DNA from: Diprion similis
Taxonomy: Eukaryota > Arthropoda > Insecta > Hymenoptera > Diprionidae
NCBI RefSeq assembly: GCF_021155765.1
Contig: NC_060112.1
Location: 4,216,001-4,280,000, forward strand
Length of the DNA: 64,000 nt
Direction: 5' to 3'
The position numbers and the translations under genes are program-made. Shown one piece after another: positions 11,100 through 42,830 of this stretch. The notes below the pieces were generated by a model. That model worked only from the letters and a program-made list of their open reading frames with translations, was not told where the DNA came from and made no database searches. The stretch's first letter is position 1. Every line of letters begins with the position of its first letter.

Positions 11100-14000
11100 C
11101 TTTTGATGTGTCTTCTGAGTTACTGAGCGTCTAATTATTGGAAAAAGCGTCACATGAATCGTTTCCGAGACGGAAGATTTTTCGGCCGGAAAAAATTCCA
11201 GGGCTAACCCCTTTGGGTTTTTGGCGAAAATTTCGACGACTATGGGGAGTGCTGCGATTGATTCGTTGAGGCACTATTACCACGTAATTATGCGAAAGAA
11301 ATCGATCAAGCGCAGACCCAATACAGTGCGAGTAACAAATCAGAAGTCACAGCCAAAAATGAATGGGCGCATTTTCTCAATTTTTCTGCTGCTGGTCCAA
11401 TGCTTTTTTTGTTGTGTTTTCTGAGTTCCTGAGCGTCCAATAAATCAGGAAAGGGTCACAAAATCGATTCCGAGACGAAAAATTCTCAGCTGCAAAAATG
11501 ACCAGAAAAATGAGGCTAACCCCTTTGGATTTTCTGCAAAGATTTCGACGACTCTGAAAAGTGTTGCAATAAATTCTTTCGGGCACTATTCGGACGTAAT
11601 TTTGCAAGAGAAATCGATTGGGCGCAGTCCCAATACGCTGCGAGCAACTGATCAAAAGTTACAGCAAAAAACTGCAGATTTTCATGGTCACTTCTCTGCT
11701 GTTGGTCATACGCTTTTTTTAATGTGTTTTTTGAGTTCCTGGGGTTCCATTCAGCCTAAAAACGGTCATACAAATCAATTCAGAGACCAGAAATTTTAGG
11801 CTCCAAAAACTGCAAAAAAAGTAAGGATAACTCCTTTGGATTTTTTGCGAAAATTTCGACGACTTTGAAAAGTGCTGCAATTGATTCTTTAGGGCACTAT
11901 TCCGACGTAATTTTGCAAGTGAAATCGATTGATCGCAGTCCCAATACGCTGCGAGTAACGGATCAAAAGTTACAGCCAAAAAACTGCAGATTTTCATCGT
12001 CATTTCTCTGCGGTTGGTCCTACCCTTTTTTCAATGTGTTTGTTGAGTTCCAGGGGTTCCAATTAGCCGAGAAACGGTCATACAAATCAATTCGGAGTCG
12101 AGAAATTTTCGGCTCCAAAAATCGCAAAAAAAGTAAGGCTAACCCCTTTGAATTTTTGGCGAAAATTTCGACGACTTTGAAAAGTGCTGCAATTAGATCT
12201 TTAAGGCACTATTCCGACGTAATTTTGCAAGAGAAATCGATTGATCGCAGTCCCAATACGCTGCGAGTAACGGATCAAAAGTTACAGCCAAAAAACTGCA
12301 GATTTTCATCGTCATTTCTCTGCAGTTGGTCCTACCCTTTTTTCAATGTGTTTGTTGAGTTCCAGGGGTTCCAATTAGCCGAGAAACAGTCATACAAATC
12401 AATTCGGAGTCCAGAAATTTTCGGCTCCAAAAATCGCAAAAAAAGTAAGGCTAACCCCTTTGGATTTTTAGCGAAAATTTTGACCACTTTGAAAAGTGCT
12501 GCAATTATTTCTTCAGGGCACTATTCCGACGTAATTTTGCAAGAGAAATCGATTGATCGCAGTCCCAACACGCTGCGAGTAACGGATCAAAAGTTACAGC
12601 CAAAAAACTGCAGATTTTCATCGTCATTTCTCTGCAGTTGGTCCTACCCTTTTTTTAATGTGTTTGTTGAGTTCCTGGGGTTCCAATTAGCCGAAGAACG
12701 GTCATACAAATCAATTCGGAGTCCAGAAATTTTCGGCTCCAAAAATCGCAAAAAAAGGAAGGCTAACCCCTTTGGATTTTTGGCAAAAATTTCGACTACT
12801 TTGAAAAGTGCTGCAATTAATTCTTTAGGGCACTATTCCGAAGTAATTTTGCAAGAGAAATCGATTGATCGCAGTCCCAATACGCTGCGAGTAACGGATC
12901 AAAAGTTACAGCCAAAAAACTGCAGATTTTCATCGTCATTTCTCTGCAGTTGGTCCTACCCTTTTTTTAATGTGTTTGTTGAGTTCCTGGGGTTCCAATT
13001 AGCCAAGAAACGGTCATACAAATCAATTCGAAGTCCAGAAATTTTCGGCTCCAAGAATCGCAAAAAAAGTAAGGCTAACCCCTTTGGATTTTTGGCGAAA
13101 ATTTCGACGACTTTGGAAAGTGCTGCAATTAATTCTTTGAGGCACTATTCCGACGTCATTTTGCAAGAGAAATCGATTGATCGCAGTCCCAATACGCTGC
13201 GAGTAACGGATCAAAAGTTACAGCCAAAAAACTGCAGATTTTCATCGTCATTTCTCTGCAGTTGGTCCTACCCTTTTTTTAATGTGTTTGTTGAGTTCCT
13301 GGGGTTCCAATCAGCCAAGAAACGGTCATACAAATCAATTCGGAGTCCAGAAATTTTCGGCTCCAAAAATCGCAAAAAAAAGTAAGGCTAACCCCTTTGG
13401 ATTTTTGGCGAAAATTTTGACCACTTTAAAAAGTGCTGCAATTATTTCTTCAGGGCACTATTCCGACGTAATTTTGCAAGAGAAATCGATTGATCGCAGT
13501 CCCAATACGCTGCGAGTAACGGATCAAAAGTAACAGCCAAAAAACTGCAGATTTTCATCGTCATTTCTCTGCAGTTGGTCCTACCCTTTTTTCAATGTGT
13601 TTGTTGTGTTCCAGGGGTTCCAATTAGCCGAGAAACAGTCATACAAATCAATTCGGAGTCCAGAAATTTTCGGCTCCAAAAATCGCAAAAAAAGTAAGGC
13701 TAACCCCTTTGGATTTTTGGCGAAAATTTTGACCACTTTGAAAAGTGCTGCAATTATTTCTTCAGGGCACTATTCCGACGTAATTTTGCAAGAGAAATCG
13801 ATTGATCGCAGTCCCAATACGCTGCGAGTATCGGATCAAAAGTTACAGCCAAAAAACTGCAGATTTTCATCGTCATTTCTCTGCAGTTGGTCCTACCCTT
13901 TTTTTGATGTGTTTGTTGAGTTCCTGGGGTTCCAATTAGCCAAGAAACGGTCATACAAATCAATTCGGAGTCCAGAAATTTTCGGCTCCAAAAATCGCAA

Positions 14001-15639
14001 AAAAAGTAAGGCTAACCCCTTTGGATTTTTGGCAAAAATTTCGACTACTTTGAAAAGTGCTGCAATCAATTCTTTAGGGCACTATTCCGACGTAATTTTG
14101 CAAGAGAAATCGATTGATCGCAGTCCCAATACGCTGCGAGTAACGAGTCAAAAGTTACAGCCAAAAAACTGCAGATTTTCATCGTCATTCCTCTGCAGTT
14201 AGTCCTACCCTTTTTTTAATGTGTTTGTTGAGTTCATGGGGTTCCAATTAGCCGAGAAACGGTCATACAAATCAATTCGGAGTCCAGAAATTTTCGGCTC
14301 TAAAAATCGCAAAAAAAGTAAGGCTAACCCCTTTGGATTTTTGGCGAAAATTTCGACTACTTCGGAAAGTGCTGCAATTAATTCTTTAGGGCACTATTCC
14401 GACGTAATTTTGCGAGAGAAATCGATTGATCGCAGTCCCAATTCGCTGCGAGTAACGAGTCAAAAGTTACAGCCAAAAAACTGCAGATTTTCATCGTCAT
14501 TTCTCTGCAGTTGGTCCTACGCTTTTTTTAATGTGTATGTTGAGTTCCTGGGGTTCCAATTAGCCAAGAAACGGTCATACAAATCAATTCGGAGTCCAGA
14601 AATTTTCGGCTCCAAAAATCGCAAAAAAGTAAGGCTAACCCCTTTGGATTTTTGGCGAAAATTTTGACCACTTTGAAAAGTGCTGCATTTATTTCTTCAG
14701 GGCACTATTCCGACGTAATTTTGCAAGAGAAATCAATTGATCGCAGTCCCAATACGCTGCGAGTAACGGATCAAAAGTTACAGCCAAAAAACTGCAGATT
14801 TTCATCGTCATTTCTCTGCAGTTGGTCCTACCCTTTTTTTGATGTGTTTGTTGAGTTCCTGGGGTTCCAATTAGCCAAGAAACGGTCATACAAATCAATT
14901 CGGAGTCCAGAAATTTTCGGCTCCAAAAATCGCAAAAAAAGTAAGGCTAACCCCTTTGGATTTTTAGCGAAAATTTTGACCACTTTGAAAAGTGCTGCAA
15001 TTATTTCTTCAGGGCACTATTCCGACGTAATTTTGCAAGAGAAATCGATTGATCGCAGTCCCAATACGCTGCGAGTAACGGATCAAAAGTTACAGCCAAA
15101 AAACTGCAGATTTTCATCGTCATTTCTCTGCAGTTGGTCCTACCCTTTTTTTAATGTGTTTGTTGAGTTCCTGGGGTTCCAATTAGCCAAGAAACGGTCA
15201 TACAAATCAATTCGGCGTCCAAAAATTTTCGGCTCCAAAAATCGCAAAAAAAGTAAGGCTAACCCCTTTGGATTTTTGGCAAAAATTTCGACTACTTTGA
15301 AAAGTGCTGCAATTAATTCTTTAGGGCACTATTCCGACGTAATTTTGCAAGAGAAATCGATTGATCGCAGTCCCAATACGCTGCTAGTAACGAGTCAAAA
15401 GTTACAGCCAAAAAACTGCAGATTTTCATCGTCATTTCTCTGCAGTTGGTCCTACCCTTTTTTCAATGTGTTTGTTGAGTTCCAGGGGTTCCAATTAGCC
15501 GAGAAACAGTCATACAAATCAATTCGGAGTCCAGAAATTTTCGGCTCCAAAAATCGCAAAAAAAGTAAGGCTAACCCCTTTGGATTTTTGGCGAAAATTT
15601 TGACCACTTTGAAAAGTGCTGCAATTATTTCTTCAGGGC

Positions 15640-18600
15640 ACTATTCCGACGTAATTTTGCAAGAGAAATCGATTGATCGCAGTCCCAATACGCTGCGAGT
15701 AACGGATCAAAAGTTACAGCCAAAAAACTGCAGATTTTCATCGTCATTTCTCTGCAGTTGGTCCTACCCTTTTTTTAATGTGTTTGTTGAGTTCCTGGGG
15801 TTCCAATTAGCCAAGAAACGGTCATACAAATCAATTCGGAGTCCAGAAATTTTCGGCTCCAAAAATCGCAAAAAAAGTAAGGCTAACCCCTTTGGATTTT
15901 TGGCGAAAATTTCGACGACTTTGGAAAGTGCTGCAATTAATTCTTTAAGGCACTATTCCGACGTAATTTTGCAAGAGAAATCGATTGATCGCAGTCCCAA
16001 TACGCTGCGAGTAACGGATCAAAAGTTACAGCCAAAAAAGTGCAGATTTTCATCGTCATTTCTCTGCAGTTGGTCCTTCCCTTTTTTTAATGTGTTTGTT
16101 GAGTTCCTGGGGTTCCAATTAGCCAAGAAACGGTCATACAAATCAATTCGGAGTCCAGAAATTTTCGGCTCCAAAAATCGAAAAAAAAGTAAGGCTAACC
16201 CCTTTGGATTTTTGGCAAAAATTTCGACTACTTTGAAAAGTGCTGCAATTATTTCTTCAGGGCACTATTCCGACGTAATTTTGCAAGAGAAATCGATTGA
16301 TCGCAGTCCCAATACGCTGCGAGTAACGGATCAAAAGTTACAGCCAAAAAACTGCAGATTTTCATCGTCATTTCTCTGCAGCTGGTCCTACCCTTTTTTT
16401 AATGTGTTTGTTGAGTTCCTGGGGTTCCAATTAGCCAAGAAACGGTCATACAAATCAATTCGGCGTCCAGAAATTTTCGGCTCCAAAAATCGCAAAAAAA
16501 GTAAGGCTAACCCCTTTGGATTTTTGGCGAAAATTTTGACCACTTTAAAAAGTGCTGCAATTATTTCTTCAGGGCACTATTACGACGTAATTTTGCAAGA
16601 GAAATCGATTGATCGCAGTCCCAATACGCTGCGAGTAACGGATCAAAAGTTACAGCCAAAAAACTGCAGATTTTCATCGTCATTTCTCTGCAGTTGGTCC
16701 TACGCTTTTTTTAATGTGTTTGTTGAGTTCCTGGGGTTCCAATTAGCCAAGAAACGGTCATACAAATCAATTCGGAGTCCAGAAATTTTCGGCTCCAAAA
16801 ATCGCAAAAAAAGTAAGGCTAACCCCTTTGGATTTTTGGCGAAAATTTCGACGACTTTGAAAAGTGCTGCAATTAATTCTTTTAGGCACCATTCCGACGT
16901 AATTTTGCAAGAGAAATCGATTGATCGCAGTCCCAATACGCTGCGAGTAACGGATCAAAAGTTACAGCCAAAAAAACTGCAGATTTTCATCGTCATTTCT
17001 CTGCAGTTGGTCCTACCCTTTTTTCAATGTGTTTGTTGAGTTCCAGGGGTTCCAATTAGCCAAGAAACGGTCATACAAATCAATTCGGCGTCCAGAAATT
17101 TTCGGCTCCAAAAATCGCAAAAAAAGTAAGGCTAACCCCTTTGGATTTTTGGCGAAAATTTTGACCACTTTGAAAAGTGCTGCAATTATTTCTTCAGGGC
17201 ACTATTCCGACGTAATTTTGCAAGAGAAATCGATTGATCGCAGTCCCAATACGCTGCGAGTAACGGATCAAAAGTTACAGCCAAAAAACTGCAGATTTTC
17301 ATCGTCATTTCTCTGCAGTTGGTCCTACCGTTTTTTTAATGTGTTTGTTGAGTTCCTGGGGTTCCAATTAGCCAAGAAACGGTCATACAAATCAATTCGG
17401 AGTCCAGAAATTTTCGGCTCCAAAAATCGCAAAAAAAGTAAGGCTAACCCCTTTGGATTATTGGCGAAAATTTCGACTACTTTAGAAAGTGCTGCAATTA
17501 TTTCTTGAGGGCACTATTTCGACGTAATTTTGCGAGAGAAATCGATTGATCGCAGTCCCAATACGCTGCGAGTAACGAGTCAAAAGTTACAGCCAAAAAA
17601 CTGCAGATTTTCATCGTCATTTCTCTGCAGTTGGTCCTACGCTTTTTTTAATGTGTTTGTTGAGTTCCTGGGGTTCCAATTAGCCAAGAAACGGTCATAC
17701 AAATCAATTCGGAGTCCAGAAATTTTCGGCTCCAAAAATCGCAAAAAAAGTAAGGCTAACCCCTTTGGATTTTTGGCGAAAATTTCGACTACTTCGAAAA
17801 GTGCTGCAATTAATTCTTTAGGGCACCATTCCGACGTAATTTTGCGAAAGAAATCGATTGATCGCAGTCCCAATACGCTGCGAGTAACGAGTCAAAAGTT
17901 ACAGCCAAAAAACTGCAGATTTTCATCGTCATTTCTCTGCAGTTGGTCCTACGCTTTTTTTAATGTGTTTGTTGAGTTCCTGGGGTTCCAATTAGCCAAG
18001 AAACGGTCATACAAATCAATTCGGAGTCCAGAAATTTTCGGCTCCAAAAATCGCAAAAAAGTAAGGCTAACCCCTTTGGATTTTTGGCGAAAATTTTGAC
18101 CACTTTGAAAAGTGCTGCATTTATTTCTTCAGGGCACTATTCCGACGTAATTTTGCAAGAGAAATCAATTGATCGCAGTCCCAATACGCTGCGAGTAACG
18201 GATCAAAAGTTACAGCCAAAAAACTGCAGATTTTCATCGTCATTTCTCTGCAGTTGGTCCTACCCTTTTTTTGATGTGTTTGTTGAGTTCCTGGGGTTCC
18301 AATTAGCCAAGAAACGGTCATACAAATCAATTCGGAGTCCAGAAATTTTCGGCTCCAATAATCGCAAAAAAAGTAAGGCTAACCCCTTTGGATTTTTAGC
18401 GAAAATTTTGACCACTTTGAAAAGTGCTGCAATTATTTCTTCAGGGCACTATTCCGACGTAATTTTGCAAGAGAAATCGATTGATCGCAGTCCCAATACG
18501 CTGCGAGTAACGGATCAAAAGTTACAGCCAAAAAACTGCAGATTTTCATCGTCATTTCTCTGCAGTTGGTCCTACCCTTTTTTTAATGTGTTTGTTGAGT

Positions 18601-21600
18601 TCCTGGGGTTCCAATTAGCCAAGAAACGGTCATACAAATCAATTCGGCGTCCAAAAATTTTCGGCTCCAAAAATCGCAAAAAAAGTAAGGCTAACCCCTT
18701 TGGATTTTTGGCAAAAATTTCGACTACTTTGAAAAGTGCTGCAATTAATTCTTTAGGGCACTATTCCGACGTAATTTTGCAAGAGAAATCGATTGATCGC
18801 AGTCCCAATACGCTGCGAGTAACGGATCAAAAGTTACAGCCAAAAAACTGCAGATTTTCATCGTCATTTCTCTGCAGTTGGTCCTACCCTTTTTTTAATG
18901 TGTTTGTTGAGTTCCTGGGGTTCCAATTAGCCAAGAAACGGTCATACAAATCAATTCGGAGTCCAGAAATTTTCGGCTCCAAAAATCGCAAAAAAAGTAA
19001 GGCTAACCCCTTTGGATTTTTGGCGAAAATTTCGACGACTTTGGAAAGTGCTGCAATTAATTCTTTAAGGCACTATTCCGACGTAATTTTGCAAGAGAAA
19101 TCGATTGATCGCAGTCCCAATACGCTGCGAGTAACGGATCAAAAGTTACAGCCAAAAAAGTGCAGATTTTCATCGTCATTTCTCTGCAGTTGGTCCTTCC
19201 CTTTTTTTAATGTGTTTGTTGAGTTCCTGGGGTTCCAATTAGCCAAGAAACGGTCATACAAATCAATTCGGAGTCCAGAAATTTTCGGCTCCAAAAATCG
19301 AAAAAAAAGTAAGGCTAACCCCTTTGGATTTTTGGCAAAAATTTCGACTACTTTGAAAAGTGCTGCAATTATTTCTTCAGGGCACTATTCCGACGTAATT
19401 TTGCAAGAGAAATCGATTGATCGCAGTCCCAATACGCTGCGAGTAACGGATCAAAAGTTACAGCCAAAAAACTGCAGATTTTCATCGTCATTTCTCTGCA
19501 GCTGGTCCTACCCTTTTTTTAATGTGTTTGTTGAGTTCCTGGGGTTCCAATTAGCCAAGAAACGGTCATACAAATCAATTCGGCGTCCAGAAATTTTCGG
19601 CTCCAAAAATCGCAAAAAAAGTAAGGCTAACCCCTTTGGATTTTTGGCGAAAATTTTGACCACTTTAAAAAGTGCTGCAATTATTTCTTCAGGGCACTAT
19701 TACGACGTAATTTTGCAAGAGAAATCGATTGATCGCAGTCCCAATACGCTGCGAGTAACGGATCAAAAGTTACAGCCAAAAAACTGCAGATTTTCATCGT
19801 CATTTCTCTGCAGTTGGTCCTACGCTTTTTTTAATGTGTTTGTTGAGTTCCTGGGGTTCCAATTAGCCAAGAAACGGTCATACAAATCAATTCGGAGTCC
19901 AGAAATTTTCGGCTCCAAAAATCGCAAAAAAAGTAAGGCTAACCCCTTTGGATTTTTGGCGAAAATTTCGACGACTTTGAAAAGTGCTGCAATTAATTCT
20001 TTTAGGCACCATTCCGACGTAATTTTGCAAGAGAAATCGATTGATCGCAGTCCCAATACGCTGCGAGTAACGGATCAAAAGTTACAGCCAAAAAAACTGC
20101 AGATTTTCATCGTCATTTCTCTGCAGTTGGTCCTACCCTTTTTTCAATGTGTTTGTTGAGTTCCAGGGGTTCCAATTAGCCAAGAAACGGTCATACAAAT
20201 CAATTCGGCGTCCAGAAATTTTCGGCTCCAAAAATCGCAAAAAAAGTAAGGCTAACCCCTTTGGATTTTTGGCGAAAATTTTGACCACTTTGAAAAGTGC
20301 TGCAATTATTTCTTCAGGGCACTATTCCGACGTAATTTTGCAAGAGAAATCGATTGATCGCAGTCCCAATACGCTGCGAGTAACGGATCAAAAGTTACAG
20401 CCAAAAAACTGCAGATTTTCATCGTCATTTCTCTGCAGTTGGTCCTACCGTTTTTTTAATGTGTTTGTTGAGTTCCTGGGGTTCCAATTAGCCAAGAAAC
20501 GGTCATACAAATCAATTCGGAGTCCAGAAATTTTCGGCTCCAAAAATCGCAAAAAAAGTAAGGCTAACCCCTTTGGATTATTGGCGAAAATTTCGACTAC
20601 TTTAGAAAGTGCTGCAATTATTTCTTGAGGGCACTATTTCGACGTAATTTTGCGAGAGAAATCGATTGATCGCAGTCCCAATACGCTGCGAGTAACGAGT
20701 CAAAAGTTACAGCCAAAAAACTGCAGATTTTCATCGTCATTTCTCTGCAGTTGGTCCTACGCTTTTTTTAATGTGTTTGTTGAGTTCCTGGGGTTCCAAT
20801 TAGCCAAGAAACGGTCATACAAATCAATTCGGAGTCCAGAAATTTTCGGCTCCAAAAATCGCAAAAAAAGTAAGGCTAACCCCTTTGGATTTTTGGCGAA
20901 AATTTCGACTACTTCGAAAAGTGCTGCAATTAATTCTTTAGGGCACCATTCCGACGTAATTTTGCGAAAGAAATCGATTGATCGCAGTCCCAATACGCTG
21001 CGAGTAACGAGTCAAAAGTTACAGCCAAAAAACTGCAGATTTTCATCGTCATTTCTCTGCAGTTGGTCCTACGCTTTTTTTAATGTGTTTGTTGAGTTCC
21101 TGGGGTTCCAATTAGCCAAGAAACGGTCATACAAATCAATTCGGAGTCCAGAAATTTTCGGCTCCAAAAATCGCAAAAAAGTAAGGCTAACCCCTTTGGA
21201 TTTTTGGCGAAAATTTTGACCACTTTGAAAAGTGCTGCATTTATTTCTTCAGGGCACTATTCCGACGTAATTTTGCAAGAGAAATCAATTGATCGCAGTC
21301 CCAATACGCTGCGAGTAACGGATCAAAAGTTACAGCCAAAAAACTGCAGATTTTCATCGTCATTTCTCTGCAGTTGGTCCTACCCTTTTTTTGATGTGTT
21401 TGTTGAGTTCCTGGGGTTCCAATTAGCCAAGAAACGGTCATACAAATCAATTCGGAGTCCAGAAATTTTCGGCTCCAGAAATCGCAAAACAAGTAAGGCT
21501 AACCCCTTTGGATTTTTAGCGAAAATTTTGACCACTTTGAAAAGTGCTGCAATTATTTCTTCAGGGCACTATTCCGACGTAATTTTGCAAGAGAAATCGA

Positions 21601-21879
21601 TTGATCGCAGTCCCAATACGCTGCGAGTAACGGATCAAAAGTTACAGCCAAAAAACTGCAGATTTTCATCGTCATTTCTCTGCAGTTGGTCCTACCCTTT
21701 TTTTAATGTGTTTGTTGAGTTCCTGGGGTTCCAATTAGCCAAGAAACGGTCATACAAATCAATTCGGCGTCCAAAAATTTTCGGCTCCAAAAATCGCAAA
21801 AAAAGTAAGGCTAACCCCTTTGGATTTTTGGCAAAAATTTCGACTACTTTGAAAAGTGCTGCAATTAATTCTTTAGGGC
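15640..21879. repeat. Tandem duplication of a 10-monomer (3,120 bp) block in the satellite
   Basis: The block 15,640-18,759 is followed directly by a copy at 18,760-21,879. Rare variants recur at exactly +3,120: the G in AAAAAAGTGCAG (16,038 and 19,158), GGTCCTTCCC (16,072 and 19,192), CGAAAAAAAAGT (16,179 and 19,299), TATTACGACG (16,579 and 19,699) and CTACCGTTTT (17,326 and 20,446). By eye the only differences are three substitutions near 18,358-18,370 versus 21,478-21,490. Identity continues to about 18,820/21,940 and then breaks. This is a young higher-order repeat. Confidence 0.85.
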
Positions 21880-24059
21880 ACTATTCCGACGTAATTTTGC
21901 AAGAGAAATCGATTGATCGCAGTCCCAATACGCTGCTAGTAACGAGTCAAAAGTTACAGCCAAAAAACTGCAGATTTTCATCGTCATTTCTCTGCAGTTG
22001 GTCCTACCCTTTTTTCAATGTGTTTGTTGAGTTCCAGGGGTTCCAATTAGCCGAGAAACAGTCATACAAATCAATTCGGAGTCCAGAAATTTTCGGCTCC
22101 AAATATCGCAAAAAAAGTAAGGCTAACCCCTTTGGATTTTTAGCGAAAATTTTGACCACTTTGAAAAGTGCTGCAATTATTTCTTCAGGGCACTATTCCG
22201 ACGTAATTTTGCAAGAGAAATCGATTGATCGCAGTCCCAATACGCTGCGAGTAACGGATCAAAAGTTACAGCCAAAAAACTGCAGATTTTCATCGTCATT
22301 TCTCTGCAGTTGGTCCTACCCTTTTTTTAATGTGTTTGTTGAGTTCCTGGGGTTCCAATTAGCCAAGAAACGGTCATACAAATCAATTCGGAGTCCAGAA
22401 ATTTTCGGCTCCAAAAATCGCAAAAAAAGGAAGGCTAACCCCTTTGGATTTTTGGCAAAAATTTCGACTACTCTGAAAAGTGCTGCAATTAATTCTTTAG
22501 GGCACTATTCCGACGTAATTTTGCAAGAGAAATCGATTGATCGCAGTCCCAATACGCTGCGAGTAACGGATCAAAAGTTACAGCCAAAAAACTGCAGATT
22601 TTCATCGTCATTTCTCTGCAATTGGTCCTACCCTTTTTTTAATGTGTTTGTTGAGTTCCTGGGGTTCCAATTAGCCAAGAAACGGTCATACAAATCAATT
22701 CGAAGTCCAGAAATTTTCGGCTCCAAGAATCGCAAAAAAAGTAAGGCTAACCCCTTTGGATTTTTGGCGAAAATTTCGACGACTTTGGAAAGTGCTGCAA
22801 ATAATTCTTTGAGGCACTATTCCGACGTCATTTTGCAAGAGAAATCGATTGATCGCAGTCCCAATACGCTGCGAGTAACGGATCAAAAGTTACAGCCAAA
22901 AAACTGCAGATTTTCATCGTCATTTCTCTGCAGTTGGTCCTACCCTTTTTTTAATGTGTTTGTTGAGTTCCTGGGGTTCCAATCAGCCAAGAAACGGTCA
23001 TACAAATCAATTCGGAGTCCAGAAATTTTCGGCTCCAAAAATCGCAAAAAAAGTAAGGCTAACCCCTTTGGATTTTTGGCGAAAATTTTGACCACTTTGA
23101 AAAGTGCTGCAATTATTTCTTCAGGGCACTATTCCGACGTAATTTTGCAAGAGAAATCGATTGATCGCAGTCCCAATACGCTGCGAGTAACGGATCAAAA
23201 GTTACAGCCAAAAAACTGCAGATTTTCATCGTCATTTCTCTGCAGTTGGTCCTACCCTTTTTTTGATGTGTTTGTTGAGTTCCTGGGGTTCCAATTAGCC
23301 AAGAAACGGTCATACAAATCAATTCGGAGTCCAGAAATTTTCGGCTCCAAAAATCGCAAAAAAAGTAAGGCTAACCCCTTTGGATTTTTGGCAAAAATTT
23401 CGACTACTTTGAAAAGTGCTGCAATCAATTCTTTAGGGCACTATTTCGACGTAATTTTGCAAGAGAAATCGATTGATCGCAGTCCCAATACGCTGCGAGT
23501 AACGAGTCAAAAGTTACAGCCAAAAAACTGCAGATTTTCATCGTCATTCCTCTGCAGTTGGTCCTACCCTTTTTTTAATGTGTTTGTTGAGTTCCTGGGG
23601 TTCCAATTAGCCGAGAAACGGTCATACAAATCAATTCGGAGTCCAGAAATTTTCGGCTACAAAAATCGCAAAAAAAGTAAGGCTAACCCCTTTGGATTTT
23701 TGGCGAAAATTTCGACTACTTTGAAAAGTGCTGCAATCAATTCTTTAGGGCACTATTCCGACGTAATTTTGCAAGAGAAATCGATTGATCGCAGTCCCAA
23801 TACGCTGCGAGTAACGAGTCAAAAGTTACAGCCAAAAAACTGCAGATTTTCATCGTCATTTCTCTGCAGTTGGTCCTACCCTTTTTTTAATGTGGTTGTT
23901 GAGTTCCTGGGGTTCCAATTAGCCAAGAAACGGTCATACAAATCAATTCGGAGTCCAGAAATTTTCGGCTCCAAAAATCGCAAAAAAAGTAAGGCTAACC
24001 CCTTTGGATTTTTGGCGAAAATTTCGACGACTTTGAAAAGTGCTGCAATTAATTCCTTT

Positions 24060-26519
24060 AGGCACCATTCCGACGTAATTTTGCAAGAGAAATCGATTGA
24101 TCGCAGTCCCAATACGCTGCGAGTAACGGATCAAAAGTTACAGCCAAAAAAACTGCAGATTTTCATCGTCATTTCTCTGCAGTTGGTCCTACCCTTTTTT
24201 CAATGTGTTTGTTGAGTTCCAGGGGTTCCAATTAGCCGAGAAACAGTCATACAAATCAATTCGGAGTCCAGAAATTTTCGGCTCCAAAAATCGCAAAAAA
24301 AGTAAGGCTAACCCCTCTGGATTTTTGGCGGAAATTTTGACCACTTTGAAAAGTGCTGCAATTATTTCTCCAGGGCACTATTCCGACGTAATTTTGCAAG
24401 GGAAATCGATTGATCGCAGTCCCAATACGCCGCGAGTAACGGATCAAAAGTTACAGCCAAAAAACTGCAGATTTTCATCGTCATTTCTCTGCAGTTGGTC
24501 CTACCCTTTTTTCAATGTGTTTGTTGAGTTCCAGGGGTTCCAATTAGCCAAGAAACGGTCATACAAATCAATTCGGAGTCCAGAAATTTTCGGCTCCAAA
24601 AATCGCAAAAAAAGTAAGGCTAACCCCTTTGGATTTTTGGCAAAAATTTCGACTACTTTGAAAAGTGCTGCAATTGATTCTTCAGGGCACTATTTCGACG
24701 TAATTTTGCAAGAGAAATCGATTGATCGCAGTCCCAATACGCTGCGAGTAACGAGTCAAAAGTTACAGCCAAAAAACTGCAGATTTTCATCGTCATTTCT
24801 CTGCAGTTGGTCCTACCCTTTTTTTAATGTGTTTGTTGAGTTCCTGGGGTTCCAATTAGCCAAGAAACGGTCATACAAATCAATTCGGAGTCCAGAAATT
24901 TTCGGCTCCAAAAATCGCAAAAAAAGTAAGGCTAACCCCTTTGGATTTTTGGCAAAAATTTCGACTACTTTGAAAAGTGCTGCAATTAATTCTTTAGGGC
25001 ACTATTCCGACGTAATTTTGCAAGAGAAATCGATCGATCGCAGTCCCAATACGCTGCGAGTAACGAGTCAAAAGTTACAGCCAAAAAACTGCAGATTTTC
25101 ATCGTCATTTCTCTGCAGTTGGTCCTACGCTTTTTTTAATGTGTTTGTTGAGTTCCTGGGGTTCCAATTAGCCAAGAAACGGTCATACAAATCAATTCGG
25201 AGTCTAGAAATTTTCGGCTCCAAAAATCGCAAAAAAAGTAAGGCTAACCCCTTTGGATTTTTGGCGAAAATTTCGACGACTTTGAAAAGTGCTGCAATTA
25301 ATTCTTTTAGGCACCATTCCGACGTAATTTTGCAAGAGAAATCGATTGATCGCAGTCCCAATACGCTGCGAGTAACGGATCAAAAGTTACAGCCAAAAAA
25401 ACTGCAGATTTTCATCGTCATTTCTCTGCAGTTGGTCCTACCCTTTTTTCAATGTGTTTGTTGAGTTCCAGGGGTTCCAATTAGCCGAGAAACAGTCATA
25501 CAAATCAATTCGGAGTCCAGAAATTTTCGGCTCCAAAAATCGCAAAAAAAGTAAGGCTAACCCCTCTGGATTTTTGGCGGAAATTTTGACCACTTTGAAA
25601 AGTGCTGCAATTATTTCTCCAGGGCACTATTCCGACGTAATTTTGCAAGGGAAATCGATTGATCGCAGTCCCAATACGCCGCGAGTAACGGATCAAAAGT
25701 TACAGCCAAAAAACTGCAGATTTTCATCGTCATTTCTCTGCAGTTGGTCCTACCCTTTTTTCAATGTGTTTGTTGAGTTCCAGGGGTTCCAATTAGCCAA
25801 GAAACGGTCATACAAATCAATTCGGAGTCCAGAAATTTTCGGCTCCAAAAATCGCAAAAAAAGTAAGGCTAACCCCTTTGGATTTTTGGCAAAAATTTCG
25901 ACTACTTTGAAAAGTGCTGCAATTGATTCTTCAGGGCACTATTTCGACGTAATTTTGCAAGAGAAATCGATTGATCGCAGTCCCAATACGCTGCGAGTAA
26001 CGAGTCAAAAGTTACAGCCAAAAAACTGCAGATTTTCATCGTCATTTCTCTGCAGTTGGTCCTACCCTTTTTTTAATGTGTTTGTTGAGTTCCTGGGGTT
26101 CCAATTAGCCAAGAAACGGTCATACAAATCAATTCGGAGTCCAGAAATTTTCGGCTTCAAAAATCGCAAAAAAAGTAAGGCTAACCCCTTTGGATTTTTG
26201 GCAAAAATTTCGACTACTTTGAAAAGTGCTGCAATTAATTCTTTAGGGCACTATTCCGACGTAATTTTGCAAGAGAAATCGATCGATCGCAGTCCCAATA
26301 CGCTGCGAGTAACGAGTCAAAAGTTACAGCCAAAAAACTGCAGATTTTCATCGTCATTTCTCTGCAGTTGGTCCTACGCTTTTTTTAATGTGTTTGTTGA
26401 GTTCCTGGGGTTCCAATTAGCCAAGAAACGGTCATACAAATCAATTCGGAGTCTAGAAATTTTCGGCTCCAAAAATCGCAAAAAAAGTAAGGCTAACCCC
26501 TTTGGATTTTTGGCGAAAA
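24060..26519. repeat. Tandem duplication of a 4-monomer (about 1,249 bp) block in the satellite
   Basis: Sequence from about 24,060 to 25,270 recurs at +1,249 (four monomers plus one base). Shared rare variants include ACCCCTCTGG, CAATACGCCGCGAG, ATTTCTCCAGGGC and the GATCGATCG form, each seen in both blocks. By eye there is one internal difference, GGCTCC near 24,904 against GGCTTC near 26,153. The extra base comes from an A-run change. Confidence 0.75.
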
Positions 26520-33200: not shown

Positions 33201-33930
33201 AGATTTTCATCGTCATTTCTCTGCAGTTGGTCCTACCCTTTTTTTAATGTGTTTGTTGAGTTCCTGGGGTTCCAATTAGCCAAGAAACGGTCATACAAAT
33301 CAATTCGGAGTCCAGAAATTTTCGGCTCCAAAAATCGCAAAAAAAGTAAGGCTAACCCCTTTGGATTTTTGGTGAAAATCTCGACGACTCTGGAAAGTGC
33401 TGCAATTAATTCTTTAAGGCACCATTCCGACGTAATTTTGCAAGAGAAATCGATTGATCGCAGTCCCAATACGCTGCGAGTAACGGATCAAAAGTTACAG
33501 CCAAAAAACTGCAGATTTTCATCGTCATTTCTCTGCAGTTGGTCCTGCGCTTTTTTTAATGTGTTTGTTGAGTTCCTGGGGTTCCAATAAGCCAAGAAAC
33601 GGTCATACAAATCAATGCGGAGTCCAGAAATTTTCGGCTCCAAAAATCGCAAAAAAAGTAAGGCTAACCCCTTTGGATTTTTGGCGAAAATTTCGACTAC
33701 TTTGGAAAGTGCTGCAATTAATTCTTTAGGGCACTATTCCGACGTAATTTTGCGAGAGAAATCGATTAATCGCAGTCCCAATACGCTGCGAGTAACAAGT
33801 CAAAAGTTACAGCCAAAAAACTGCAGATTTTCATCGTCATTTCTCTGCAGTTGGTCCTACGCTTTTTTTAATGTGTATGTTGAGTTCCTGGGGTTCCAAT
33901 TAGCCAAGAAACGGTCATACAAATCAATTC
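30255..33930. repeat. Duplicated satellite segment at about +3,118
   Basis: About 30,255-30,812 and 33,372-33,930 share rare variants: ATCTCGACGACTCTGG, GGTCCTGCGC, CCAATAAGCC, CAATGCGGAG, CGATTAATCG and ATGTGTATGTTG. The offset is 10 monomers less two or three bases, caused by A-run and C-run changes. A similar pair of variants (CAATAAGCC, CAATGCGG) also appears near 35,147-35,177. Confidence 0.6.
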
Positions 33931-36900
33931 GGAGTCCAGAAATTTTCGGCTCCAAAAATCGCAAAAAAGTAAGGCTAACCCCTCTGGATTTTTGGCGAAA
34001 ATTTTGACCACTTTGAAAAGTGCTGCAATTATTTCTTCAGGGCACTTTCCCGACGTAATTTTGCAAGAGAAATCGATTGATCGCAGTCCCAATACGCTGC
34101 GAGTAACGGATCAAAAGTTACAGCCAAAAAACTGCAGATTTTCATCGTCATTTCTCTGCAGTTGGTCCTACCCTTTTTTCAATGTGTTTGTTGAGTTCCA
34201 GGGGTTCCAATTAGCCGAGAAACGGTCATACAAATCAATTCGGAGTCGAGAAATTTTCGGCTCCAAAAATCGCAAAAAAAGTAAGGCTAACCCCTTTGGA
34301 TTTTTGGCGAAAATTTCGACTACTTTGAAAAGTGCTGCAAATAATTCTTTAGGGCACCATTCCGGTGTAATTTCGCAAGAGAAATCGATTGATCGCAGTC
34401 CCAATACGCTGCGAGTAACGAGTCAAAAGTTACAGCCAAAAAACTGCAGATTTTCATCGTCATTTCTCTGCAGTTGGTCCTACCCTTTTTTCAATGTGTT
34501 TGTTGAGTTCCAGGGGTTCCAATTAGCCGAGAAACAGTCATACAAATCAATTCGGAGTCCAGAAATTTTCGGCTCCAAAAATCGCAAAAAAAGTGAGGCT
34601 AACCCCTTTGGATTTTTGGCGAAAATTTTGACCACTTTGAAAAGTGCTGCAATTATTCCTTCAGGGCACTATTCCGACGTAATTTTGCAAGAGAAATCGA
34701 TTGATCGCAGTCCCAATACGCTGCGAGTAACGGATCAAAAGTTACAGCCAAAAAACTGCAGATTTTCATCGTCATTTCTCTGCAGTTGGTCCTACCCTTT
34801 TCTTAATGTGTTTGTTGAGTTCCTGGGGTTCCAATTAGCCAAGAAACGGTCATACAAATCAATTCGGAGTCCAGAAATTTTCGGCTCCAAAAATCGCAAA
34901 AAAAGTAAGGCTAACCCCTTTGGATTATTGGCGAAAATTTCGACTACTTTAGAAAGTGCTGCAATTAATTCTTGAGGGCACTATTCCGACGTAATTTTGC
35001 AAGAGAAATCGATTGATCGCAGTCCCAATACGCTGCGAGTAACGAGTCAAAAGTTACAGCCAAAGAACTGCAGATTTTCATCGTCATTTCTCTGCAGTTG
35101 GTCCTACGCTTATTTTAATGTGTTTGTTATGTTCCTGGGGTTCCAATAAGCCAAGAAACGGTCATACAAATCAATGCGGAGTCCAGAAATTTTCGGCTCC
35201 AAAATCGCAAAAAAAGTAAGGCTAACCCCTTTGGATTTTTGGCGGAAATTTTGACCACGTTGAAAAGTGCTGCAATTATTTCTTCAGGGCACTATTCCGA
35301 CGTAATTTTGCAAGAGAAATCGATTGATCGCAGTCCCAATACGCCGCGAGTAACGGATCAAAAGTTACAGCCAAAAAACTGCAGATTTTCATCGTCATTT
35401 CTCTGCAGTTGGTCCTACCCTTTTTTCAATGTGTTTGTTGAGTTCCAGGGGTTCCAATTAGCCGAGAAACGGTCATACAAATCAATTCGGAGTCGAGAAA
35501 TTTTCGGCTCCAAAAATCGCAAAAAAAGTAAGGCTAACCCCTTTGGATTTTTGGCGAAAATTTCGACTACTTTGAAAAGTGCTGCAATTAATTCTTTAGG
35601 GCACCATTCCGGTGTAATTTTGCAAGAGAAATCGATTGATCGCAGTCCCAATACGCTGCGAGTAACGAGTCAAAAGTTACAGCCAAAAAACTGCAGATTT
35701 TCATCGTCATTTCTCTGTAGTTGGTCCTACCCTTTTTTTAATGTGTTTGTTGAGTTCCTGGGGTTCCAATTAGCCAAGAAAGGGTCATACAAATAAATTC
35801 GGAGTCCAGAAATTTTCGGCTTTAAAAATCGCAAAAAAAGTAAGGCTATTCCCTTTGGATTTCAGGCGAAAATTTTGACCACTTTGAAAAGTGCTGCAAT
35901 TATTTCTTCAGGGCACTATTCCGACGTAATTTTGCAAGAGAAATCGATTGATCGCAGTCCCAATACGCTGCGAGTAACGGATCAAAAGTTACAGCCAAAA
36001 AACTGCAGATTTTCATCGTCATTTCTCTGCAGTTGGTCCTACCCTTTTTTTAATGTGTTTGTTGAGTTCCTGGGGTTCCAATTAGCCAAGAAACGGTCAT
36101 ACAAATCAATTCGGAGTCCAGAAATTTTCGGCTCCAAAAATCGCAAAAAAAGTAAGGCTAACCCCTTTGGATTTTTGGCAGAAATTTCGACTACTTTGAA
36201 AAGTGCTGCAATTAATTCTTTAGGGCACTATTCCGACGTAATTTTGCAAGAGAAATCGATTGATCGCAGTCCCAATACGCTGCGAGTAACGAGTCAAAAG
36301 TTACAGCCAAAAAACTGCAGATTTTTATCGTCATTTCTCTGCAGTTGGTCCTACCCTTTTTTTAATGTGTTTGTTGAGTTCCTGGGGTTCCAATTAGCCA
36401 AGAAACGGTCATACAAATCAATTCGGAGTCCAGAAATTTTCGGCTCTAAAAATCGCAAAAAAAGTAAGGCTAACCCCTTTGGATTTTTGGCGAAAATTTC
36501 GACGACTTTGGAAAGTGCTGCAATTAATTCTTTAAGGCACTATTCCGACGTAATTTTGCAAGAGAAAACGATTGATCGCAGTCCCAATACGCTGCGAGTA
36601 ACGGATCAAAAGTAACAGCCAAAAAACTGCAGATTTTCATCGTCATTTCTCTGCAGTTGGTCCTACCCTTTTTTCAATGTGTTTGTTGAGTTCCAGGGGT
36701 TCCAATTAGCCGAGAAACGGTCATACAAATCAATTCGGAGACGAGAAATTTTCGGCTCCAAAAATCGCAAAAAAAGTAAGGCTAACCCCTTTGGATTTTT
36801 GGCGAAAATTTCGACTACTTTGAAACGTGCTGCAATTAATTCTTTAGGGCACCATTCCGGTGTAATTTTGCAAGAGAAATCGATTGATCGCAGTCCCAAT

Positions 36901-39900
36901 ACGCTGCGAGTAACGAGTCAAAAGTTACAGCCAAAAAACTGCAGATTTTCATCGTCATTTCTCTGTAGTTGGTCCTACCCTTTTTTTAATGTGTTTGTTG
37001 AGTTCCTGGGGTTCCAATTAGCCAAGAAACGGTCATACAAATCAATTCGGAGTCCAGAAATTTTCGGCTCCAAAAATCGCAAAAAAAGTAAGGCTAACCC
37101 CTTTGGATTTTAGGCGAAAATTCTGACCACTTTGAAAAGTGCTGCAATTATTTCTTCAGGGCACTATTCCGACGTAATTTTGCAAGAGAAATCGATTGAT
37201 CGCAGTCCCAATACGCTGCGAGTAACGGATCAAAAGTTACAGCCAAAAAACTGCAGATTTTCATCGTCATTTCTCTGCAGTTGGTCCTACCCTTTTTTTA
37301 ATGTGTTTGTTGAGTTCCTTGGGTTCCAATTAGCCAAGAAACGGTCATACAAATCAATTCGGAGTCCAGAAATTTTCGGCTCCAAAAATCGCAAAAAAAG
37401 TAAGGCTCACCCCTTTGGATTTTTGGCGAAAATTTCGACTACTTTGAAAAGTGCTGCAATTAATTCTTTAGGGCACTATTCCGACGTAATTTTGCAAGAG
37501 AAATCGATTGATCGCAGTCCCAATACGCTGCGAGTAACGGATCAAAAGTTACAGCCAAAAAACTGCAGATTTTCATCGTCATTTCTCTGCAGTTGGTCCT
37601 ACCCTTTTTTCAATGTGTTTGTTGAGTTCCAGGGGTTCCAATTAGCCGAGAAACAGTCATACAAATCAATTCGGAGTCCAGAAATTTTCGGCTCCAAAAA
37701 TCGCAAAAAAAGTAAGGCTAACCCCTTTGGATTTTTGGCGAAAATTTTGACCACTTTGAAAAGTGCTGCAATTATTCCTTTAGGGCACTATTCCGACGTA
37801 ATTTTGCAAGAGAAATCGATTGATCGCAGTCCCAATACGCTGCGAGTAACGGATCAAAAGTTACAGCCAAAAAACGGCAGATTTTCATCGTCATTTCTCT
37901 GCAGTTGGTCCTACCCTTTTCTTAATGTGTTTGTTGAGTTCCTGGGGTTCCAATTAGCCAAGAAACGGTCATACAAATCAATTCGGAGTCCAGAAATTTT
38001 CGGCTCCAAAAATCGCAAAAAAAGTAAGGCTAACCCCTTTGGATTTTTGGCGAAAATTTCGACTACTTTGAAAAGTGCTGCAATTAATTCTTTTAGGCAC
38101 TATTCCGACGTAATTTTGCAAGAGAAATCGATTGATCGCAGTCCCAATACGCTGCGAGTAACGAGTCAAAAGTTACAGCCAAAAAACTGCAGATTTTCAT
38201 CGTCATCTCTCTGCGGTTGGTCCTACCCTTTTTTCAATGTGTTTGTTGAGTTCCAGAGGTTCCAATTAGCCGAGAAACGGTCATACAAATCAATTCGGAG
38301 TCCAGAAATTTTCGGCTCCAAAAATCGCAAAAAAAGTAAGGCTAACCCCTTTGGATTTTAGGCGAAAATTCTGACCACTTTGAAAAGTGCTGCAATTATT
38401 TCTTCAGGGCACTATTCCGACGTAATTTTGCAAGAGAAATCGATTGATCGCAGTCCCAATACGCTGCGAGTAACGGATCGAAAGTTACAGCCAAAAAACT
38501 GCAGATTTTCATCGTCATTTCTCTGCAGTTGGTCCTACCCTTTTTTCAATGTGTTTGTTGAGTTCCTGGGGTTCCAATTAGCCAAGAAACGGTCATACAA
38601 ATCAATTCGGAGTCCAGAAATTTTCGGCTCCAAAAATCGCAAAAAAAGTAAGGCTAACCCCTTTGGATTTTTGGCGAAAATTTCGACGACTTTGGAAAGT
38701 GCTGCAATTAATTCTTTAAGGCACTATTCCGACGTAATTTTGCAAGAGAAATCGATTGATCGCAGTCCCAATACGCTGCGAGTAACGGATCAAAAGTAAC
38801 AGCCAAAAAACTGCAGATTTTCATCGTCATTTCTCTGCAGTTGGTCCTACCCTTTTTTCAATGTGTTTGTTGAGTTCCAGGGGTTCCAATTAGCCGAGAA
38901 ACGGTCATACAAATCAATTCGGAGTCGAGAAATTTTCGGCTCCAAAAATCGCAAAAAAAGTAAGGCTAACCCCTTTGGATTTTTGGCGAAAATTTCGACT
39001 ACTTTGAAAAGTGCTGCAATTAATTCTTTAGGGCACCATTCCGGTGTAATTTTGCAAGAGAAATCGATTGATCGCAGTCCCAATACGCTGCGAGTAACGA
39101 GTCAAAAGTTACAGCCAAAAAACTGCAGATTTTCATCGTCATTTCTCTGCAGTTGGTCCTACCCTTTTTTCAATGTGTTTGTTGAGTTCCAGGGGTTCCA
39201 ATTAGCCGAGAAACGGTCATACAAATCAATTCGGAGTCGAGAAATTTTCGGCTCCAAAAATCGCAAAAAAAGTAAGGCTAACCCCTTTGGATTTTTGGCG
39301 AAAATTTCGACTACTTTGAAAAGTGCTGCAATTAATTCTTTGGGGCACTATTCCGACGTAATTTTGCAAGAGAAATCGATTGATCGCAGTCCGAATACGC
39401 TGCGAGTAACGAGTCAAAAGTTACAGCCAAAAAACTGCAGATTTTCATCGTCATTTCTCTGCACTTGGTCCTACCCTTTTTTAAATGTGTTTGTTGAGTT
39501 CCTGGGGTTCCAATTAGCCGAGAAACGGTCATACAAATCGATTCGGAGTCCAGAAATTTTCGGCTCCAAAAATCGCAAAAAAAGTAAGGCTAACCCCTTT
39601 GGATTTTTGGCAAAAATTTCGACTACTTTATAAAGTGCTGCAATTGATTTTTTAGGGCACCATTCCGACGTAATTTCGCAAGAGAAATCGATTGATCGCA
39701 GTCCCAATACGCTGCGAGTAACGAGTCAAAAGTTACAGCCAAAAAACTGCAGATTTTCATCGTCATTTCTCTGCAGTTCGTCCTACCCTTTTTTTAATGT
39801 GTTTGTTGAGTTCCTGGGGTTCCAATTAGCCAAGAAACGGTCATACAAATCAATTCGGAGTCCAGAAATTTTCGACTCCAAAAATCGCAAAAAAAGTAAG

Positions 39901-42830
39901 GCTAACCCCTTTGGATTTTTGGCGAAAATTTCGACTACTTTGAAAAGTGCTGCAATTAATTCTTTAGGGCACTATTCCGACGTAATTTTGCAAGAGAAAT
40001 CGATCGATCGCAGTCCCAATACGCTGCGAGTAACGAGTCAAAAGTTACAGCCAAAAAACTGCAGATTTTCATCGTCATTTCTCTGCAGTTGGTCCTACCC
40101 TTTTTTCAATGTGTTTGTTGAGTTCCAGGGGTTCCAATTAGCCGAGAAACGGTCATACAAATCAATTCGGAGTCCAGAAATTTTCGGCTCCAAAAATCGC
40201 AAAAAAAGTAAGGCCCTTTGGATTTTTGGCGAAAATTTCGACTACTTTGAAAAGTGCTGCAATTAATTCTTTAAGGCACTATTCCGACGTAATTTTGCAA
40301 GAGAAATCGATTGATCGCAGTCCCAATACGCTGCGAGTAACGGATCGAAAGTTACAGCCAAAAAACTGCAGATTTTCATCGTCATTTCTCTGCAGTTGGT
40401 CCTCCCCTTTTTTCAATGTGTTTGTTGAGTTCCAGGGGTTCCAATTAGCCGAGAAACAGTCATACAAATCAATTCGGAGTCCAGACATTTTCGGCTCCAA
40501 AAATCGCAAAAAAAAGTAAGGCTAACCCCTTTGGATTTTTGGCGAATATTTCGACCACTTTGAAAAGTGCTGCAATTATTTCTTCAGGGCACCATTCCGA
40601 CGTAATTTTGCAAGAGAAATCGATTGATCGCAGTCTCAATACGCTGCGAGTAACGGATCGAAAGTTACAGCCAAAAAACTGCAGATTTTCATCGTCATTT
40701 CTCTGCAGTTGGTCCTACCCTTTTTTCAATGTGTTTGTTGAGTTTCAGGGGTTCCAATTAGCCGAGAAACAGTCATACAAATCAATTCGGAGTCCAGAAA
40801 TTTTCGGCTCCAAAAATCGCAAAAAAAAGTAAGGCTAACCCCTTTAGATTTTTAGCGAAAATTTCGACTACTTTGAAAAGTGCTGCAATTATTTCTTCAG
40901 GGCACTATTCCGACGTAATTTTGCAAGAGAAATCGAATGATCGCAGTCCCAATACGCTGCGAGTAACGGATCAAAAGTTACAGCCAAAAAACTGCAGATT
41001 TTCATCGTCATTTCTCTGCAGTTGGTCCTACCCTTTTTTTAATGTGTTTGTTGAGTTCCTGGGGTTCCAATTAGCCAAGAAACGGTCATACAAATCAATT
41101 CGGAGTCCAGAAATTTTCGGCTCCAAAAATCGCAAAAAAAGTAAGGCTAACCCCTTTGGATTTTTGGAGAAAATTTCGACTACTTTGAAAAGTGCTGCAA
41201 TTAATTCTTTAGGGCACTATTCCGACGTAATTTTGCACGAGAAATCGATTGATCGCAGTCCCAATACGCTGCGAGTAACGAGTCAAAAGTTACAGCCAAA
41301 AAACTGCAGATTTTCATCGTCATTTCTCTGCAGTTGGTCCTACCCTTTTTTTAATGTGTTTGTTGAGTTCCTGGGGTTCCAATTAGCCAAGAAACGGTCA
41401 TACAAATCAATTCGGAGTCCAGAAATTTTCGGCTCCAAAAATCGCAAAAAAAGTAAGGCTAACCCCTTTGGATTATTGGCGAAAATTTCGACTACTTTGG
41501 AAAGTGCTGCAATTAATTCTTTAGGGCACTATTCCGACGTAATTTTGCGAGAGAAATCGATTGATCGCAGTCCCAATACGCTGCGAGTAACGAGTCAAAA
41601 GTTACAGCCAGAAAACTGCAGATTTTCATCGTCATTTCTCTGCAGTTGGTCCTACCCTTTTTTCAATGTGTTTGTTGAGTTCCTGGGGTTCCAATTAGCC
41701 AAGAAACGGTCATACAAATCAATTCGGAGTCCAGAATTTTTCGGCTCCAAAAATCGCAAAAAAAGTAAGGCTAACCCCTTTGGATTTTTGGCGAAAATTT
41801 CGACGACTTTGGAAAGTGCTGCAATTAATTCTTTAAGGCACTATTCCGACGTAATTTTGCAAGAGAAATCGATTGATCGCAGTCCCAATACGCTGCGAGT
41901 AACGGATCAAAAGTTACAGCCAAAAAACTGCAGATTTTCATCGTCATTTCTCTGCAGTTGGTCCTACCCTTTTTCCAATGTGTTTGTTGAGTTCCAGGGG
42001 TTCCAATTAGCCGAGAAACAGTCAAACAAATCAATTCGGAGTCCAGAAATTTTCGGCTTCAAAAATCGCAAAAAAAGTAAGGCTAACCCCTTCGGATTTT
42101 TGGCGAAAATTTTGACCACTTTGAAAAGTGCTGCAATTAATTCTTTAGGGCACTATTCCGACGTAATTTTGCAAGAGAAATCGATTGATCGCAGTCCCAA
42201 TACGCTGCGAGTAACGGATCAAAAGTTACAGCCAAAAAACTGCAGATTTTCATCGTCATTTCTCTGCTGTTGGTCCTACGCTTTCTTCAACGTGTTTGTT
42301 GAGTTCCTGGGGTTCCAATTAGCCAAGAAACGGTGATACAAATCAATCCGGCGACCAGAAGTTTTCGGCTCCAAAAATCGCAAAAAAAAGTAAGGCTAAC
42401 CCCTTCGGATTTTTGGCGAAAATTCTAACGACTTTGAAAAGTGCTGCAATTAATTCTTCAGGGCACTATTTTGACGTCATATTGCGACAGAAATCGATTG
42501 ACCGCAGTCCGATTGCGCTGCGGGCTACGGATCAAAAGTTGCAGCCAAAAAACGAAAGACGCAATCTCTTCACTCTTCTACTGCTGATCCTTGCGTCGTC
42601 ATTTTTCTGCTGTAGGTCCTCCGCCATTTTTGATGTTTTCTTTCGAGTTTTCGCGGGTCACATCAGACGAAAGAATTGAGACCTACAAAAAGAAGTTATG
42701 CTCTCCCCTTTGGATATTTGACGAAAATTCCGACAATGTTGATTATTGCTGGAATCAAACAATCTCCTACTATGTCAACGTAACTATGACGAAGAAATTG
42801 GTCGCGTGCAATTCTAATTCTGCATCGTTG

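Follow-up and report, generated by a model that had tools for sequence, protein, structure and literature searches.

A dispersed 312-bp satellite family neighbouring genes in Diprion similis

We analysed a stretch of 64,000 nucleotides of Diprion similis (contig NC_060112.1; hereafter, the window), which contains a long array of 312-bp monomers. The 312-bp family is a major satellite that occurs in dispersed, gene-neighbouring arrays. It has the features of satellite DNA, that is, tandem head-to-tail copies, a monomer free of codon constraint and a high copy number in the genome. Our preferred reading, to which we assign a probability of roughly 0.78, is that the satellite is long-lived and needs no function to account for it, and that its scattered arrays, from a few kb up to 69 kb long, are renewed both within and between arrays.

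The preliminary description of the window, made from the sequence itself, had guessed that copies may exist elsewhere in the genome, and had proposed a search with the monomer to distinguish a major satellite with many large arrays from a local expansion at a single locus. Many arrays were found, and thus the family is a major satellite and no local expansion. The core 30-mer of the genome consensus, allowing at most three mismatches, has 26,374 matches in the 269-Mb genome (13,577 forward and 12,797 reverse), and its reversed control has no matches genome-wide. The same search with the window version of the core yields 15,928 matches. At 312 bp each, 26,374 copies amount to 8.2 Mb, or 3.06% of the 269 Mb; this count takes in only copies with at most three mismatches in the core and misses more diverged ones. 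No exact match to the core 21-mer was observed in viral contigs.

Among the matches listed, the satellite occupies at least 43 places, which lie on 10 of the 60 contigs; the plus strand has 24 of them and the minus strand 19. These places were gathered from matches to rare variants among those listed or best-scored and from array edges, and form neither a random nor a complete sample. Spans of at least 5 kb are found at 24 of the 43 places, four places span 0.3-1.9 kb between matches, and the remaining 15 are represented by single matches. The longest spans are 69 kb (contig C12) and 56 kb (contig C3), where, as for all places, continuity between matches is presupposed. Supposing that about 100 copies per array are typical, the genome would contain roughly 260 arrays, about one per Mb. 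A location among genes holds for the array in the window, and gene-like frames lie beside three other arrays.

The array at C3:12600601-12656475 (12.60-12.66 Mb) shows, by eye, core variants at 936, 936 and 312 bp in many places, which suggests a higher-order repeat.

In the window, Tandem Repeats Finder (TRF) reports period 312, 100.5 copies and 95% matches with score 56451 at positions 11202-42553. Monomer starts were located by one conserved 15-base anchor with at most three mismatches. The 101 starts found in this way are separated by 100 spacings, of which 80 are 312 bp, 11 are 311 bp, seven are 313 bp, and single ones are 620 and 305 bp. The alignment of monomers covers 99 of the 100 intervals, the 620-bp interval at 39900-40519 being omitted. 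A profile built from the monomers adds decayed partial copies at 11100-11194 and 42700-42819, and finds no further satellite copy in the rest of the window at E <= 0.01. Thus the preliminary description was right both in its limits (11100-42830, compared to 11100-42819 by the profile) and in its count of about 100 head-to-tail copies. Chance origin of the array is excluded by the TRF score together with the zero matches of the genome-wide control. The mean identity of a monomer to all other monomers is 95.2% in the middle of the array, compared to 74% and 88% for the first two monomers and 62% for the last one. Since the terminal monomers are less identical than those in the middle, the edge decay is real, as is the homogeneous centre proposed earlier.

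The longest exact internal repeats of the array have lengths 2723, 898, 851 and 747 bp at distances of 10, 37, 4 and 27 monomers, respectively. Exact duplicates at whole-monomer offsets suggest recent unequal exchange or conversion. Unequal exchange had been expected in the preliminary description, and its signs are borne out, the 2723-bp duplication 10 monomers apart being an example.

We compared divergence in 11 arrays, using 100 monomers from the window and 230 from the other arrays (two of the sampled loci overlap by about 560 bp). The mean divergence is 4.6% inside the window array and 6.3-10.1% between it and the 10 other arrays. Within-array likeness exceeding between-array likeness, the hallmark of concerted evolution, is therefore observed for the window array. 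Across all 11 arrays the inner divergence ranges from 2.7 to 7.4%. In four of the 10 other arrays (C1_3.55, C7_2.68, C4_13.4 and C4_17.6) it does not lie clearly under the value for the nearest other array, a pattern that fits exchange between arrays. The window array also has variants of its own: at columns 109, 132, 188, 218 and 274 one base is carried by at least 95% of its monomers, and a different one by at least 97% of those from the other ten arrays. All 85 exact matches to the window version of the core, among the matches listed, fall inside the window array. These private variants would have been gained after transfer between arrays.

Ten array edges provided 21 scored stretches, of which 15 were kept as having less than 85% identity to the grand consensus. 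These 15 edge monomers fall into eight edge sets; the six arrays of origin lie on contigs C1, C3, C4, C6 and C8. They are 18-38% diverged and are about equally distant from the centres of their own and of other arrays; the identities to own and other centres are 0.764 and 0.772 for the left edge of the window array, 0.804 and 0.816 for its right edge, and 0.823 and 0.811 for the array on C6. The mean agreement between two edge monomers is 64.1%, whereas 57.8% is expected under independent decay from the present consensus. Sharing was also simulated with gamma-distributed rate variation of shape 1.0 (milder) and 0.5 (stronger), 300 runs each. A non-consensus base occurs in at least seven edge sets at four columns, compared to simulated means of 0.20 and 0.49 and maxima of 2 and 3 for the two shapes, respectively; the threshold of at least six sets gives eight columns, with means of 1.36 and 2.79 and maxima of 5 and 10. 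Column 233 is non-consensus in all eight edge sets and column 177 in six of the eight; in both columns the edge base is found in none of the 324 centre monomers.

We read these data as traces of older family sequence retained at the edges. The centres look as if they were homogenised across chromosomes later, given that the edges are about equally far from their own and from other centres and that some bases common among edges are absent or rare in the centres. The edge decay of the preliminary description thus stands, with one refinement: the edges of the window array resemble its centre no more than the centres of other arrays, and some bases, absent or seldom seen in centres, are common to them and to the edges of other arrays.

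The following scheme would account for these observations. The duplicated blocks of whole monomers in the window array would be products of unequal exchange or conversion, a process that would also keep its centre alike. Array ends would rarely pair out of register, and so would leave the exchange and decay. Sequence may also pass between arrays; excised circles or conversion tracts, recombining with resident arrays through homology, are the most likely vehicles. The sampled centres would thereby come to share a young consensus, with some older bases kept at the edges, and arrays such as that in the window would then gain private variants. The arrays can be explained with no function, most likely as selfish or neutral DNA.

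Several observations weigh against this scheme. The transfer itself, by circles or by conversion, has not been observed. The sequence sample consists of 11 arrays, from places that form no random or complete sample, and two of its loci share about 560 bp. Two of the six arrays behind the eight edge sets contribute both ends, so that the sets are in part dependent on one another. Two of the ten edges (on C7 and on C4 at 13.4 Mb) have no monomer under 85% identity, and six closer stretches were dropped. The eight columns non-consensus in at least six sets exceed the milder-variation maximum of 5, but stay below the stronger-variation maximum of 10. At five or more sets there are 14 columns, with simulated means of 6.49 and 10.53 and within the maxima of 14 and 19, and at three or more sets the 58 columns show no excess over the simulated mean of 61. 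Finally, in columns 163, 209 and 243, which with column 233 make up the four columns shared by at least seven sets, the edge base persists at low frequency in the centres (10, 6 and 27 of the 324 monomers), so that part of the older consensus survives there.

An alternative source of dispersal is a mobile element, Helitron-like or fold-back, that carries the arrays as its internal tandem repeats and has spread them. Oyster and Drosophila offer known cases of tandem repeats borne by elements (passages of PMC10048060, PMC10218199, PMC4079207), and three of the array edges have a repeat of about 110 bp nearby. However, apart from this repeat, the ten edge flanks (164-2467 bp) share nothing at E <= 0.01, barring short or weak matches, and one of them holds further diverged monomers. 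Array ends fall at varying phases of the monomer in the eight of ten edges where a phase could be read, decay blurring the exact ends: the approximate starts are at profile positions 204, 152, 78, 105 and about 167, and the approximate ends at 122, 22 and 144. No transposase family is matched by seven non-satellite frames of the window or by six further frames (one from the window, five from the flanks of three other arrays). As the flanks are unrelated and the end phases vary, no carrier element with fixed ends shows, nor do the ten edges have common flanks or termini, and we consider carriage by a mobile element quite improbable. It is unlikely, too, that the arrays act locally by recruiting heterochromatin, seeding small RNAs or regulating neighbours, roles that have been proposed for 1.688 of Drosophila and TCAST of Tribolium. 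Such a role would suit the gene-rich setting of the window array and the gene-like frames near three other arrays, and the 18-38% divergence of the edges suggests long residence. On the other hand, the monomer contains no block conserved beyond chance. Variability is uneven across its sites (variance to mean 1.93), but the least variable 20-base segment has P = 0.37 by permutation. The genome consensus monomer also has no exact match, on either strand, to the CENP-B box motif. A candidate protein-binding block at about columns 112-140, among the least variable ones, was rejected by the same permutation value; one change at a CpG in this block has a single match in the genome, compared to 58 and 50 for two other single changes and 332 for a two-base alternative at a fourth site.

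The monomer can be read through, and the array might be taken for a gene of a repetitive protein with open reading frames (ORFs) of up to 1003 amino acids. Indeed, 312 is 3 x 104, and one frame stays open across monomers in the window consensus and, for one lap, in eight of the 11 array consensuses, whereas only 26 of 5000 shuffled monomers have a fully open frame. The 1003-residue frame matches five Pfam families at E < 1e-5, three of them above the curated whole-protein score. However, these families are mutually unrelated and none passes on a single stretch, as happens when weak scores sum over repeats. Three of the 11 array consensuses contain a stop, and monomers of 311 and 313 bp shift the frame. 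Synonymous changes number 41 in the window (42.0 expected) and 268 across the 11 arrays (270.5 expected), and changes to stops 9 (7.9 expected) and 62 (51.2 expected). There is thus no codon-level selection in either set, and coding is ruled out for practical purposes. The misleading open frame is a caution for genome annotation. An assembly artefact or false expansion is very unlikely. The array length is taken from the assembly, and the exact 2723-bp duplication could in principle be an assembly error; nevertheless, the near-fixed private bases throughout the window array speak against a chimaera, as do similar arrays at many loci. A long-lived satellite renewed within and between arrays thus remains the preferred reading.

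Two possible origins of the monomer were considered. Ancestry from a half-monomer of 156 bp was rejected: identity at shift 156 is 25%, and the best shift, 149, with 35% identity and P 0.04 against 500 simple shuffles, is unconvincing. No RNA family at Rfam gathering scores and no transfer RNA (tRNA) by ARAGORN with the bacterial code were found in the window.

The coordinates of the array, its parts, two exact duplications and the adjacent genes are given in Table 1.

Table 1. Satellite array and neighbouring genes in the window
Feature	Position	Strand	Evidence or remarks
Whole satellite array including decayed edges	11100-42819	+	TRF and profile matches
Decayed left edge	11100-11824	+	Partial monomer (profile 204-297), then monomers 76% and 90% identical to array consensus
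Homogeneous centre	11825-42393	+	Aligned monomers 94.6-99.7% identical to array consensus (39900-40519 unaligned)
Decayed right edge	42394-42819	+	One monomer matched over profile 1-250, one over profile 2-122
Block duplication	15635-21477	+	15635-18357 identical to 18755-21477; 2723 bp, offset 3120 = 10 monomers
Second duplication	24057-26156	+	24057-24907 identical to 25306-26156; 851 bp, offset 1249 = 4 monomers + 1 base
mRpL39 (mL39), left neighbour gene	8764-9750	+	mL39 chains in PDB, E 7e-67
RAD18 frame with RING and UBZ, right neighbour gene	44965-45570	+	RING chain E 2e-10, UBZ chain E 9e-5

The array lies between mRpL39 and RAD18, and is either intergenic or located in a 5' intron of RAD18. 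Both genes had been named as neighbours in the preliminary description and are supported by sequence matches, although Pfam alone yields weak matches for the RAD18 frame. Genes for ClpX and a mitochondrial carrier are located further to the left, beyond mRpL39, in agreement with the gene-dense setting described earlier. Flanks of about 8 kb were fetched beside each of three other arrays (on C7, C6 and C3); they contain no satellite copy by the profile search, and five of their frames were scanned against Pfam. Two of the five have matches, one to the sodium:neurotransmitter symporter family of SNF/SLC6 type (PF00209) and one to the PH domain (PF00169); an open frame of 1090 amino acids has no Pfam match. 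By coordinates, all three frames are within 6 kb of the edge of their array. The PH-domain frame presumably resembles anillin, and the 1090-residue frame is one that we take to resemble claspin.

Other observations concern repeats and mitochondrial sequences. The repeat of about 110 bp mentioned above, 67-74% alike between its copies, is located in array flanks on C1 at 5.59 Mb, C6 at 4.85 Mb and C4 at 13.42 Mb, and may be a small dispersed element. The segment 43798-44060 of the window, to the right of the array, is matched by 11 other places in the genome at 65-79% and is likely an old dispersed repeat. Contig C45 (25,279 bp) is the mitochondrial contig, on which COX1 has an open frame of 437 residues under the invertebrate mitochondrial code. 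Its tRNA genes, as predicted by ARAGORN, are ordered on the COX1-sense side as K, D, then G, a gap that presumably corresponds to ND3, and R-A-N-S-E, while F lies on the opposite strand; insects usually have the order A-R. A COX1 fragment at C7:8182164-8182700 (profile positions 71-236, five TGA codons), on an 11-Mb contig, is probably a nuclear copy of mitochondrial DNA.

No 312-bp insect satellite appears in the titles and abstract openings of the literature searched, supplements lying outside the search; the family is new only as far as this search reaches, and its kind, presumably the dispersed euchromatic satellite, is known. Passages of PMC7642928, PMC10048060 and PMC10218199 describe euchromatic satellites in Drosophila and Tribolium. 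As presented there, these mostly form short or diverged arrays, whereas here up to hundreds of copies occur at many sites, some of them beside genes. A close likeness is to the 359-bp satellite 1.688 of Drosophila, which has a complex monomer of similar length and also forms arrays between genes. Copies of 1.688 are reported from heterochromatin as well as from euchromatin, the euchromatic ones being highly diverged (mean 23.7%; both in a passage of PMC7642928), and in D. melanogaster its euchromatic arrays mostly have up to six repeats (passage of PMC10048060). In contrast, the 312-bp family has 24 places of 5-69 kb and an inner divergence of 2.7-7.4%, the comparison being by description rather than by sequence. 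The moderate-copy satellites of Tribolium castaneum are mainly euchromatic and each mostly makes up at most 1% of the genome (passage of PMC10218199), whereas, again by description, the single family considered here makes up about 3%.

In size and genome scatter the arrays resemble those of Tyba in Rhynchospora, which forms many short arrays genome-wide with a mean length of 18 kb and a mean spacing of 374 kb (passage of PMC10954556). This likeness raises the possibility that the scattered arrays might jointly act as dispersed units of chromosome attachment, and so be an animal analogue of the holocentromeres that beaksedges build on Tyba. We consider it highly improbable. Tyba is associated with CENH3 in a holocentric plant, whereas the 312-bp family belongs to an animal and has an estimated density of roughly one array per Mb.

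The entry of new satellite sequence into old arrays has a precedent in the Drosophila simulans complex, where Rsp-like sequence entered existing 1.688 arrays (passage of PMC7919458). Two different satellites are involved there, whereas here the edges point to successive versions of one family. With up to hundreds of copies per array, many sites and edges that seem to keep traces of an older version, the 312-bp arrays would suit measurement of satellite transfer between non-homologous chromosomes.

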